A stretch of 64,000 nucleotides of DNA from Acetomicrobium flavidum (GTDB taxonomy: Bacteria; Synergistota; Synergistia; Synergistales; Acetomicrobiaceae). The DNA is taken from positions 1,884,001 to 1,948,000 of the forward strand of contig NZ_FSQZ01000001.1 of the NCBI RefSeq assembly GCF_900129645.1. The letters are read 5' to 3'. Made by a program: the position numbers and the translations under genes. The notes under the pieces were generated by a model that did no database searches, was not told where the DNA came from, and saw nothing but the letters and a program-made list of their open reading frames with translations. Positions 44,595 to 52,567 of this stretch are shown piece by piece (position 1 is the stretch's first letter; each line of letters begins with the position of its first letter).

Positions 44595-44996
44595 ATGTTA
44601 GTATATGTGTTGATCTATGAGGATGTGTTTTCCGTTTATGCCCTGGAGAAAGATGACGGAAGTTGCGATATTGCGGAACTTCTTGATATTAGCTATTCCA
44701 AAAACAAAGAAGATGGAAACTTGCGTGCTGCAATGGTTAGAAGAATTCAGGGTTTAGCGAAGGGTAATTTGCCAATAAGCAATGTACATCATTCGATCGA
44801 TAAGGACATCTGGCAAATATCATCTGGGAAATACAGGTTATTGTATTTTTATGATGCTGGACGCCGAATAATTTGTACTCACTATTTTGTAAAGGAAAAG
44901 GACAAGACGCCACGCAAAGAAATCAGTAAGGCGCAAAAACACCGAGATGATTATTTTAAGGCTAAGAAAGAAAATACTATCAGATTTAAAGATTAA
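44595..44996 (+). CDS. higB: HigB/RelE-type toxin of a toxin-antitoxin-chaperone operon
   Basis: A 133-residue protein of the HigB/Gp49-like RelE superfamily. After an N-terminal strand comes VRRIQGLAKGNLPISNVHH, then IWQISSGKYRLLYFYDAGRRIICTHYF, the basic RNase-like strand pair of this family, and a Lys-rich C-terminal helix (KEKDKTPRKEISKAQKHRDDYF). Members cut mRNA on translating ribosomes. It is 13 bp upstream of an XRE antitoxin, with toxin first as in hig loci. The gene begins right at a palindromic operator. It is on the long side because of the C-terminal helix. Confidence 0.8.
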   Translation: MLVYVLIYEDVFSVYALEKDDGSCDIAELLDISYSKNKEDGNLRAAMVRRIQGLAKGNLPISNVHHSIDKDIWQISSGKYRLLYFYDAGRRIICTHYFVKEKDKTPRKEISKAQKHRDDYFKAKKENTIRFKD

Positions 44997-45009
44997 AGGG
45001 TGATAATAT

Positions 45010-45450
45010 ATGGCAAAAGTAGGGAGCAGGTTCAAAAAAATTTTTGAAGAGGCGCAGCAACACCCAGCCTACTGGATGGAGGATTTGAGGCTACAATTTC
45101 TCGAAGAGATTAGCGCAATAATGGAAAGTCAAGGAATTACGCAAAAGGAACTTGCGGATAGAATGGGGGTTTCTGAAGCCTACATAAGCAGGGTCTTCAA
45201 TGACAACGTCGAAAAGAATTTTACCCTTAACACTCTTGTAGAGCTCAGTAAAGCCGTGAATGCAGAGATAAAAATTATCGTAACTCCCAAAAAAGCAAAA
45301 GGGTCTGATTTGCTTTATCAACAGGAATGGTTCAAGCTTCTCCAGTCTCTTGATTGCCTTAATGAATATGAAAACGTTGCTCATGATGAAACTTTAAGTC
45401 AGGAATCGCATTCTCATGAAGACAAAAGCCTCAAACCCGTGGCGGCCTAG
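45010..45450 (+). CDS. higA: HigA-type XRE antitoxin with C-terminal chaperone-addiction-like tail
   Basis: A 146-residue protein. Residues 30-90 form an XRE helix-turn-helix: QGITQKELADRMGVSEAYISRVFN. The C-terminal part, from about LLYQQEWFKLLQSL through CLNEYENVAHDE, is longer than in ordinary HigA and hydrophobic, as in the chaperone-addiction (ChAD) tail of toxin-antitoxin-chaperone antitoxins, which a SecB-like chaperone must bind for the antitoxin to be stable. The next gene encodes just such a SecB-like protein. GGGTGATA precedes the ATG. It probably represses from the palindrome at 44574-44593. Confidence 0.82.
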   Translation: MAKVGSRFKKIFEEAQQHPAYWMEDLRLQFLEEISAIMESQGITQKELADRMGVSEAYISRVFNDNVEKNFTLNTLVELSKAVNAEIKIIVTPKKAKGSDLLYQQEWFKLLQSLDCLNEYENVAHDETLSQESHSHEDKSLKPVAA

Positions 45451-45962: not shown

Positions 45963-46430
45963 TCTTGAATTTTAAGCTAATGTATTAAAATACAAAATAG
46001 GTTTTTTAGAGTACCAATATTCAAGATTGAAGGTGCGAACGTAATAGGGTTTCGTCGAATCTACTGCCGGTCTTACACTCTCGACGCAGACCAAGGCACG
46101 ATGCAACGGATAGCAAAAGAACTCGGGGGTGAAGAAATCATGCCGTCATTGGCAGAAAAATTGATAAAACAAGGGGAAGAAAGTGGCAAAATAGAAGGCG
46201 AAAAAAGAGGCGAGATTAAAGGTATAATCAAGGGCAAACAAGATCTGCTTATAAAACAACTGCGCCGCAAATTTGGCCTGTCATCATCTGACGAGAAGAC
46301 GATCCGCTCCGTCACCGACGAATCCAAACTCGACGCAGCAGCCGAAGCCGTGCTTGACGCTATCTCCAAAGACGAAATATTTAAAATATTGGTCTGCTAA
46401 ATCACATCTCTCCAGCACGAAGGTTGCTCG
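45944..46430 (+). repeat. ~470-bp direct repeat, copy C (right of the TAC operon)
   Basis: Same order as copy B: CGAGGGTCGGATC, about 75 bp of AT-rich spacer, the Rpn-like fragment, GGTCTGCTAAATCACATCT and CTCCAGCAC. It overlaps the 3' end of the SecB-like gene. Confidence 0.85.
46032..46400 (+). pseudogene. Rpn/DUF4351-like C-terminal fragment, frame intact
   Basis: The frame reads from RRIYCRSYTLDADQGTMQRI through MPSLAEKLIKQGEESGKI, a charged KIEGEKRGEIKGIIKGK linker, and KQDLLIKQLRRKFGLSSSDE to a stop at 46400. An ATG at 46101 could give a 99-residue peptide, but the nuclease domain is absent and the whole matches copy B, so it is treated as a fragment. Confidence 0.65.
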
Positions 46431-46460
46431 GTTATCATAATTTAAAAAGGAGTTAAACAA

Positions 46461-47354
46461 ATGCGCTTGAGCGAAAGGCCGCTTGATTTTGATTTCATAT
46501 TAAAACAGCTTCAAAGGGCACCGGATGCGCTAATGCCCTACAGGAAAGAGGTCGCGGCCCTGATTTTGTTCGGCTCTGCGAGTCGAGATGAGGTCACGCC
46601 TTTGAGCGATATCGACCTAGCAGTTTTGTACCGTGAAGGTTTAAGCGAATGGGAAATGTTTAAGATTCATTCAAATCTTTACATCGATCTCTCTCGGCTG
46701 ATGCACACGGATGACTTTGACTTAGTAAATCTAAACGTTGCACCGTTAACCCTGCAATTTAGCGCAATAGAAGATAAAGTCATCCTGGTCCTTTACGATC
46801 CTCAAGCCTTGGTCGATTTCCAGGCTAAGGTTTTGGGTGCTTACATGGACTTTTACCCGATTCTGCGGGAGCATTACAAGAGACTCATACATGCTTCGGA
46901 GGAACCTTCAATGGATATTAAATTAATGAATCAAATTGAATTGTTACAGGAATACATAAGTCGCCTTGAAAGGATTCGACAAAAGCCTATGGAAGAATAT
47001 CTAAAAGATGAAACTTTGCAGGCAGCGACGGAACGTTACTTGCAAATCGCAATCGAGACGTGCATAAACATAGGCAATCGTTTGCTTTCGTTGCATCAGT
47101 TTAAGGGCAATTTTAAGGCGCCAAAGACCTATGCAGATATCTTCAAAACACTTGCCTCGCTAAACGTCATCCCTGAAGACTTTGCCGACAAACTGGCTCG
47201 TATGTCCGCAATGCGCAACATCCTCGTCCATGTATATTGGGAAGTTGATAGCAAGTTAGTTTACCGCACAATCCACGATGAATTGGACGATTTCGGCAAA
47301 TTTCTTTCGTATGTAATGGCCTTTCTCAATAAGTTGGAGGAACAGAAAGGCTGA
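46461..47354 (+). CDS. MntA-HepT fusion: nucleotidyltransferase antitoxin joined to HEPN toxin
   Basis: A 297-residue single protein. Residues 1-120 are a minimal nucleotidyltransferase with LILFGSASRDEVTPLSDIDL, exactly the GS-x10-D-x-D motif of the MntA antitoxin. Residues 160-295 are a helical HEPN (DUF86/HepT-like) domain ending with MRNILVHVYWEVD, the R-x4-H-x-Y motif of the HepT RNase. In the known type VII system the two are separate genes and MntA adds AMP groups to the HepT tyrosine. Here they are covalently joined. AAGGAG is in front of the ATG-containing start. It lies 31 bases after repeat copy C and before the second 42-bp palindromic repeat. Confidence 0.85.
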   Translation: MRLSERPLDFDFILKQLQRAPDALMPYRKEVAALILFGSASRDEVTPLSDIDLAVLYREGLSEWEMFKIHSNLYIDLSRLMHTDDFDLVNLNVAPLTLQFSAIEDKVILVLYDPQALVDFQAKVLGAYMDFYPILREHYKRLIHASEEPSMDIKLMNQIELLQEYISRLERIRQKPMEEYLKDETLQAATERYLQIAIETCINIGNRLLSLHQFKGNFKAPKTYADIFKTLASLNVIPEDFADKLARMSAMRNILVHVYWEVDSKLVYRTIHDELDDFGKFLSYVMAFLNKLEEQKG

Positions 47355-47376: not shown

Positions 47377-47418
47377 GGGGTCTACCACTTATTTAGTGAT
47401 TTTATAATGGTAGACCCC
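47377..47418. repeat. 42-bp palindromic repeat, copy 2
   Basis: GGGGTCTACCA and TGGTAGACCCC form a perfect 11-bp inverted repeat around CTTATTTAGTGATTTTATAA. It matches copy 1 at 14779-14820 except for a few bases, and lies just after the MntA-HepT gene. Confidence 0.85.
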
Positions 47419-47461: not shown

Positions 47462-47998
47462 TCACCCTACGGCGCAGCTCCAGAGCCGGGCGAGGCGGTT
47501 GAGCCAGCCGTGAAGGAAGACCCGCCGGTCGGGATTTCGGGCGACGATGTCGTTGTAGTATTTCGTGCGTCGCCAAAGCAAGGCGGACAAGATTTTGGTC
47601 TTGGGCAGAGCATGATTCCAGGCAGCCTGCATGGTCTTTTGCCCAAAAATGCCGTCGACAGCCAAATCTTCGCCCAGCATGTTAAGCGCCTCCTGCAGGA
47701 ACTTCACGCCCTGCCTCAATCCGCAGTTGACGCATCCGTCGAAGACGGCTAAATCGACGGGGCGGGGGATGTGGTCGCACCCTGCAGGTTTCCAGTAAAA
47801 TTTCTCGTAGATCGCCAGCGCCTGCTCTTTTGTGAGGTCCTTTACGTCTTCGGGAAGCCCGGCGTCTTTTAGTTTGGCTCGGGCCGAGGCGAGGGTGGCG
47901 GCGGTGATGCCGTAGTTCGTCCTGCCGCCGGGGTCTTTCGGGTTGTCTACGAATCCTCCTTCGACCATGAAAATATAGTCTGCAACGTTTTTTCTCAT
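47462..47998 (-). CDS. phage-type lysozyme, GH108 with peptidoglycan-binding domain
   Basis: A 178-residue endolysin-like N-acetylmuramidase. The N-terminal FMVEGGFVDNPKDPGGRTNYGIT holds the Glu-Gly-Gly catalytic motif of glycoside hydrolase family 108. The C-terminal segment with DGCVNCGLRQGVKFLQEAL, LAVDGIFGQKTM and LLWRRTKYYNDIVARNP is the associated PG_binding_3 part. The ATG at 47998 has AAAGGAG six bases upstream; the outer ATG at 48013 does not. No signal peptide is seen, so release would need a holin; the small YvrJ membrane protein just upstream is a candidate. Confidence 0.88.
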   Translation of the reverse strand: MRKNVADYIFMVEGGFVDNPKDPGGRTNYGITAATLASARAKLKDAGLPEDVKDLTKEQALAIYEKFYWKPAGCDHIPRPVDLAVFDGCVNCGLRQGVKFLQEALNMLGEDLAVDGIFGQKTMQAAWNHALPKTKILSALLWRRTKYYNDIVARNPDRRVFLHGWLNRLARLWSCAVG

Positions 47999-48125
47999 GA
48001 AATCTCCTTTCATCTATATTAATCTATATTTATGCGCCGTCGCCAGCGCTTGCATTTTTCAATTACGGTCAAAAAACTTGCAAAAAGGCCTCGAAAGTCT
48101 GCAAAATTTCAAGGTAGGCTTGCAA

Positions 48126-51984: not shown

Positions 51985-52018
51985 TACTCGTAAATAACCA
52001 TGTGTGCAGGTGAATTCA

Positions 52019-52567
52019 TTGAACGTAAAGCTTGATTCTTTGATAACCTCCCAGACGAGGGTAAAGCTGCTTTTAAAGTTTTTCTTAAACCCCGAAAGCA
52101 GGTCGTACTTGAGAGAGCTTGCCGACGAATTCGGCGAATCGACCAATTCCGTGCGGGTAGAGCTAAACAGGCTTTCCGAAGCAGGGCTTTTAACTTCCTT
52201 TGACGAAGGCAGGACAAAAGTTTATCGGGCAAACACCAGCCACCCCCTATTTCCCGAGATACACAGCATGGTGCGTAAATTCACCGGGATTGACCAGCTC
52301 ATCCCCCAAGTATTGTCAAAGCTTGGCGACATACATTCGGCCTACATAGTGGGCGACTACGCAAGGGGGATGGATTCGGGTATAATTGACCTCGTCCTTG
52401 TGGGAGAGGCGGACAAAGCCTACCTGCAAAACCTGATAGACAAGGTCGAGCCCATGCTTCACCGAAAAGTACGCTACCTGACTTTGAGCGAAGATGAGCT
52501 TGAAAGGTACAAACCCGCCTTGAAGCTCGAAGAGGCGATAGAGCTGTGGAGCGGTAAGGGTGAGTGA
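52019..52567 (+). CDS. winged-helix regulator with degenerate nucleotidyltransferase domain
   Basis: A 182-residue protein from the TTG after AGGTGA (a GTG 15 bases earlier is also possible). Residues 15-75 form an ArsR-like winged helix: SRSYLRELADEFGESTNSVRVELNRLSEAGLL. Residues 100-170 resemble the small nucleotidyltransferase fold: SAYIVGDYARGMDSGIIDLVLVG, but the GS and paired Asp of active enzymes are not all present. This type of protein is often found directly ahead of polysaccharide genes. It reads into wbpA 62 bp later, so it may control the uronic-acid operon. Confidence 0.72.
   Translation: MNVKLDSLITSQTRVKLLLKFFLNPESRSYLRELADEFGESTNSVRVELNRLSEAGLLTSFDEGRTKVYRANTSHPLFPEIHSMVRKFTGIDQLIPQVLSKLGDIHSAYIVGDYARGMDSGIIDLVLVGEADKAYLQNLIDKVEPMLHRKVRYLTLSEDELERYKPALKLEEAIELWSGKGE

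Follow-up and report, generated by a model that had tools for sequence, protein, structure and literature searches.

HepT/MntA modules, the type VII (HEPN-MNT) toxin-antitoxin systems, are the closest described relatives of the gene analysed here. In the split systems, MntA places up to three AMPs on the tyrosine of the Rx4HxY motif of HepT, which blocks its RNase activity (PMC7641770), and the MntA:HepT complexes have a stoichiometry of 2:6 in Shewanella, 1:4 in Legionella, and 2:2 in Aphanizomenon (PMC7641770; PMC11586414). The Shewanella oneidensis pair SO_3166/SO_3165 (HEPN-MNT class I; PDB 5YEP, 6M6U/V/W, 7BXO, and 7AER) has the same families, motifs, and MntA-HepT order as the Acetomicrobium gene, but it consists of two separate genes, whereas Acetomicrobium has one continuous frame that apparently still contains the start of hepT. 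The HEPN-MNT system of Aphanizomenon flos-aquae (PDB 7AE2, 7AE6, 7AE8, and 7AE9) offers the closest HEPN structure but is likewise made of two separate proteins.

The same domain pair has also been found in one protein. Makarova 2009 noted MNT-HEPN fusions, on plasmid pAgK84 (PMC2701414), and Anantharaman 2013 described HEPN-MNT as "occasionally fused", with the fused HEPN domains typically devoid of RNase residues and turned to regulatory functions (PMC3710099); the parts of these two reports drawn on here do not mention an internal start for such fusions. Searches of open-licence papers turned up no description of a start inside the fused gene for hepT. HEPN-MNT fusions are already known, and it is the combination of intact active sites with a conserved internal start that appears to be unreported. 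Unlike in the generalisation of Anantharaman 2013, the RNase residues are intact in Acetomicrobium and in several other lineages. For this subfamily, then, the word "typically" does not hold, and since several lineages have every catalytic residue, the idea of mostly RNase-dead fusions is corrected.

The mntA-hepT fusion and its putative internal hepT start

The fusion gene lies at positions 46461 to 47354 (forward strand) of the window, by which we mean the whole 64,000-nucleotide stretch analysed from Acetomicrobium flavidum, a heat-loving bacterium, and it encodes 297 residues followed by a stop. Its own ribosome binding site, AAAAAGGAG (AAGGAG), is at 46444 to 46452 (+); a scan for sigma-70 promoters upstream of the gene returned none. 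The earlier note had reported an exact GS-x10-D-x-D antitoxin motif and an R-x4-H-x-Y HEPN motif in this one protein, and both are there: GSASRDEVTPLSDID at residues 38 to 52 (46572 to 46616, +), within the MntA nucleotidyltransferase domain (residues 28 to 112; 46542 to 46796, +; Pfam Polbeta, 4.2e-15), and RNILVHVY at residues 252 to 259 (47214 to 47237, +), of which Y259 would be the AMP acceptor. The two motifs occurred together in 9 of 100,000 shuffles of the protein. Each half scores above the cut-off of the corresponding curated equivalog model of the type VII system, namely NCBIfam MntA_antitoxin NF047752 for the MNT half (71.2 bits versus 60) and HepT_toxin NF047751 for the HEPN half (115.2 bits versus 60), and residues 162 to 284 also match Pfam HepT-like (PF01934; 3.7e-31; 107.8 bits versus a cut-off of 23.5). 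These scores, together with the intact motifs of the catalytic parts, bear out the identification of the protein as a fused type VII module. It keeps the antitoxin-then-toxin order of type VII, with one continuous frame in the place of two separate genes, and may be regarded as a variant rather than a standard member of the HepT/MntA systems; an internal hepT start could restore two products to it.

The AlphaFold model of the fusion (mean pLDDT, 82.5; pTM, 0.51, with an unreliable domain-to-domain orientation) has two ordered domains and a disordered stretch between them at residues 145 to 149. Among solved structures, the HEPN toxins of Aphanizomenon and Shewanella and the MNT antitoxins that belong to them come nearest. 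The HEPN half aligns best with 7ae6, an AMPylated HEPN toxin (Z, 20.4; rmsd, 1.9; 143 aligned), and also with Shewanella 5yep_C (Z, 18.4; rmsd, 1.8; 132 aligned); for the MNT half, the match is 7aer (Z, 13.0; rmsd, 2.7; 119 aligned).

The codons of the linker HASEEPS (residues 144 to 150; 46890 to 46910, +), mostly disordered in the model, contain a Shine-Dalgarno sequence, GGAGG (46898 to 46902, +), placed 8 nt before an in-frame ATG (M151; 46911 to 46913, +) that is the putative internal start codon of hepT. The duplex predicted for it (−9.5 kcal/mol) is more stable than the one at the fusion's own start (−8.4 kcal/mol), and the signal is present in all four orthologues. When 464 kb of this Acetomicrobium genome, taken as stretches, served as background, GGAGG at 5 to 10 nt preceded 0.9% of the internal in-frame ATGs (n = 2,185), and 2.3% had a duplex as strong. 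Predicted RNA pairing at the site is moderate, the ATG being largely paired in three of the four species. The nested frame (46911 to 47354, +; residues 151 to 297) would yield a free HepT of 147 aa, and the gene probably makes this product besides the fusion.

The closest relative outside the genus, in another Synergistota family, is a split locus (L019). Its separate MntA is 64% identical to the Acetomicrobium MntA half over 141 aa, and its mntA ends in GTG-GCC-TAA, directly followed by a hepT that begins ATG-GAT-GAT-AAA-TTG and is broken after about ten codons. The Acetomicrobium junction reads GAA-CCT-TCA-ATG-GAT-ATT-AAA-TTA, so that its TCA codon (46908 to 46910, +), at the place of the L019 stop, differs from TAA by one base. 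With this one outgroup to give the direction of the change, the simplest reading is that a stop placed exactly ahead of the start codon of hepT is the older, split state. In other split pairs (L002/L016 and L005), the ribosome site of hepT falls within the end of mntA or straddles it, so that a fusion arising by loss of the stop retains the site by default; the Acetomicrobium signal, taken alone, could for this reason be a relic.

The fusion frame is intact in four Acetomicrobium species, which rules out a sequencing or assembly error or a recent stop loss in one strain, and four of the six genus genomes carry the gene, with 95% identical orthologues in A. hydrogeniformans and Acetomicrobium UBA5826. 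The 185 Synergistota genomes surveyed had no such full-length fusion outside the genus, the remaining loci being split or partial. Between species, dN/dS is 0.12 to 0.24 for the whole gene and 0.11 to 0.30 for either half; the fusion gene is under purifying selection, with both halves constrained.

Candidate junction starts in other fusion lineages

A profile survey of 1,848 genomes for fusions and pairs returned fusions with intact motifs in several lineages; in the fetched loci, a non-random sample, 90 of the adjacent pairs with both motifs were split and 17 were fused. The earlier note would have given up its reading if all known homologues were fusions with a non-toxin role, which is not what was found, since most relatives are split pairs and the RNase motif is kept in the Acetomicrobium fusion. 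Two assignments of arrangement were revised on inspection: L008 and L009, which resemble fusions by their long stop-to-stop frames, are not fusions, their N-terminal part being an out-of-frame translation without an MNT match and the real mntA a separate ORF, and Cytobacillus H6, split according to its annotation, has a frame open through both domains.

A second, independent fusion group, which we call family B, comprises nine fused genomes (in the order to which G404 belongs), and no relative of it was detected in viral contigs. For the comparison, we used seven non-redundant members (L109 and L112 to L117) that are 53 to 78% identical and have intact motifs. All seven contain an in-frame GGAGG-N8-(G/T)TG at the beginning of HepT, 106 residues ahead of the RNase arginine. 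Synonymous sites are saturated in this set, only 9 of 108 conserved columns being codon-invariant, and yet the Glu codon of the internal Shine-Dalgarno is GAG in 7/7 members (against a usage of 26 to 40%), the codon preceding it ends in GG in 7/7, and the one member in which the Val of the start codon is changed to Leu still has a start codon, TTG. The joint log10 p is −9.1 under each gene's own codon usage with the genes treated as independent, shared ancestry making the true strength less. Since it is invariant despite the saturation, the family B signal is conserved at the nucleotide level by selection, and the case for selection is drawn from this family. Outside the comparison set, one further member (L111), 97% identical to its neighbour, has Cys in place of the acceptor tyrosine (RNAIVHVC).

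In a test over nine fusion lineages, the strongest internal start of the gene fell at the junction more often than expected (Fisher p = 1.6e-5, or p = 0.003 when the two discovery lineages are left out, L102 and L040 having also been seen beforehand). Strong junction starts occur in L102 (−11.0, TTG) and L156 (−9.5, ATG) and weaker ones in L221 (−7.1), L151 (−6.8), L125 (−6.3), and L040 (−5.0). No start with a Shine-Dalgarno was detected at the junctions of L185, L187, and L226, and that of L186 has only a very weak one (−2.7). Judged from their sequences, L185, L186, and L226, together with the N-terminally short L187, form a separate, truly locked single-chain class with Rx4HEY-type motifs, a natural contrast to the nested one. 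The findings suggest that annotation can overlook a second product inside fused toxin-antitoxin genes; of L040, a fused plasmid copy, the annotation covers the HepT half only. The L102 fusion retains the RNase R-x4-H, but its acceptor tyrosine is gone and so is the Gly-Ser of the MNT motif (RS in place of GS), a joint loss that fits a coupling of enzyme and substrate.

Proposed mechanism and alternative readings

With a split-like hepT start kept in frame in Acetomicrobium and the corresponding signal invariant in family B, free HepT is most likely also made. The permanent tie between toxin and antidote that the earlier note claimed is therefore, in our view, probably wrong, and its further claim, that release would need another trigger, loses its support. 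The likely reading, in our opinion, is a one-gene type VII toxin-antitoxin that makes an MntA-HepT fusion plus free HepT. The fusion would be translated from 46461 and the free HepT from the internal ATG at 46911. HepT, presumably the RNase and the toxic component, would be inactivated by the MntA domain through adenylylation of Y259 on its own HepT, on that of a partner, or on both. The fusion may seed a mixed assembly to which free HepT would add extra subunits through the HEPN dimer interface, and if the fusion were lost or the ATP-dependent modification lagged, unmodified HepT would cleave RNA, as in split systems. In such an arrangement, the antitoxin would never be made without toxin, while the toxin could be made without antitoxin. 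Because the fusion alone gives a ratio of 1:1, the internal start would allow extra HepT, and free HepT could be the source of the HepT excess seen in two of the three published complexes, an excess that is not universal, as the 2:2 Aphanizomenon complex illustrates.

Taken more broadly, the fusions would represent a recurrent one-gene toxin-antitoxin class in which a selected internal ribosome site keeps yielding free toxin, beside a sister class without internal start that is locked; we hold this generalisation to be on balance probable. If true, each antitoxin is synthesised already joined to one toxin, and the strength of the internal start sets the toxin excess, so that ratio and dose are coded in one gene. 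The natural nested and locked fusions would also permit a direct test of whether AMP transfer in type VII occurs in cis or between chains, and of the HepT:MntA ratio needed for control. Among other known designs, the fused toxin-antitoxin defence protein CapRel also joins toxin and antitoxin in one chain, but with different domains. It is activated by the binding of phage proteins, and we know of no nested toxin start in it. The proposed gene design also has a parallel in Cas11, a subunit that arises from inside cas8 or cas10d through in-frame initiation at an internal start (PMC11899642); there, too, one gene gives two in-frame products, the short one being an extra assembly subunit, although the Cas11 proteins are unrelated to MntA-HepT and the analogy is limited to gene design.

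The alternative that survives best is the locked single chain of the earlier note, in which the fusion is the sole product, AMP transfer takes place inside one chain or from one fusion to another, and proteolysis or AMP removal is needed for toxicity. All motifs are intact, and the arrangement is viable since L185, L186, and L226 are intact-motif fusions without a usable junction start; the Acetomicrobium signal would then be a possible relic of a recent fusion. Against it, all four species have a strong Shine-Dalgarno with an in-frame ATG precisely where hepT formerly began, and the same signal is under selection in the more diverged family B; we regard a locked Acetomicrobium chain as unlikely.

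It is more improbable still that the HEPN half has no role as an RNase toxin. The loss of RNase residues typical of MNT-fused HEPN domains, as generalised in the part of Anantharaman 2013 cited above (PMC3710099), would speak for this reading, as would the alignment of the model over both domains, though a poor one (Z, 8.6; rmsd, 7.0), to the ANT(4')/kanamycin nucleotidyltransferase 1kny. In the Acetomicrobium fusion and in nearly every member of family B, however, the RNase/AMP-acceptor motif has its R, H, and Y, and while the HepT toxin and MntA antitoxin equivalog cut-offs are passed, the ANT(4') and GlnD models score far below theirs. The ANT(4')/kanamycin nucleotidyltransferase model NF033061 reaches 15 bits versus 350 with the fusion, the models TIGR01987 and PF08780, for HI0073/HI0074-type nucleotidyltransferases that have a substrate-binding subunit, reach 14.6 versus 55.8 and 19.7 versus 31.8, respectively, and the Hailong (HalB) model NF051895 reaches 23.7 versus 190. 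A decaying remnant, left drifting by a chance stop loss, as the broken toxin-antitoxin pieces in the region and among relatives (L016, L017, and L019) might suggest, is very improbable given a frame open in four species, a dN/dS of 0.12 to 0.24, constraint on both halves, and the retention of all motifs.

Neighbourhood and related loci

Between species, the fusion gene (94% nucleotide identity) is as similar as its flanks (93 to 95%), but it is not in the same place throughout. A phosphomannomutase-like and an aminotransferase-like gene flank it in G002 and G005, whereas in the window these two are direct neighbours (at about 40084/40087), with the fusion 6 kb beyond them. The gene is thus old in the genus and locally mobile, like toxin-antitoxin modules; the fusion event itself may be young, as the orthologues are 95% identical. 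Directly after the fusion there is a 42-bp palindrome (GGGGTCTACC...GGTAGACCCC; 47377 to 47418, +), variants of which occur near other loci of the variable region, including in sister species. A palindrome-flanked mobile cassette as the cause of the gene's move is partly supported, in that the 3' palindrome recurs; a matching 5' palindromic element of the fusion gene was looked for and not found.

Another MntA gene is present in G005 (L017) and G004 (L018). In the former, just the first few codons of hepT are left, followed by a palindrome like that at 47377 to 47418 of the window, and in the latter a match to the palindrome pattern comes just after. The genus also has a second, split mntA-hepT pair (L002, G000:C1:1973048-1973843, and L016 in G004); in L016 the catalytic His of HEPN is replaced by Tyr (RNIAVYNY), which suggests that this toxin is dead.

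Upstream of the fusion by 1 kb, the window holds a Gp49-type toxin followed by an HTH protein (44595 to 45450), a HigBA-like pair whose presence near the fusion makes the region a toxin-antitoxin gene cluster inside a polysaccharide gene block. The C-terminal remnant of a DUF4351 protein (46101 to 46400) lies just upstream of the fusion, and similar remnants flank it in sister species. No match to the fusion protein was found in phage records. By eye, an HTH protein at 52004 to 52567 has a nucleotidyltransferase-like C-terminal half with the degenerate motif VGDYARGMDSGIIDLVLVG, and, also by eye, endolysin-like and other phage-like ORFs on the opposite strand start about 100 bp after the fusion (47462 to 48013, −) and extend to 51740.
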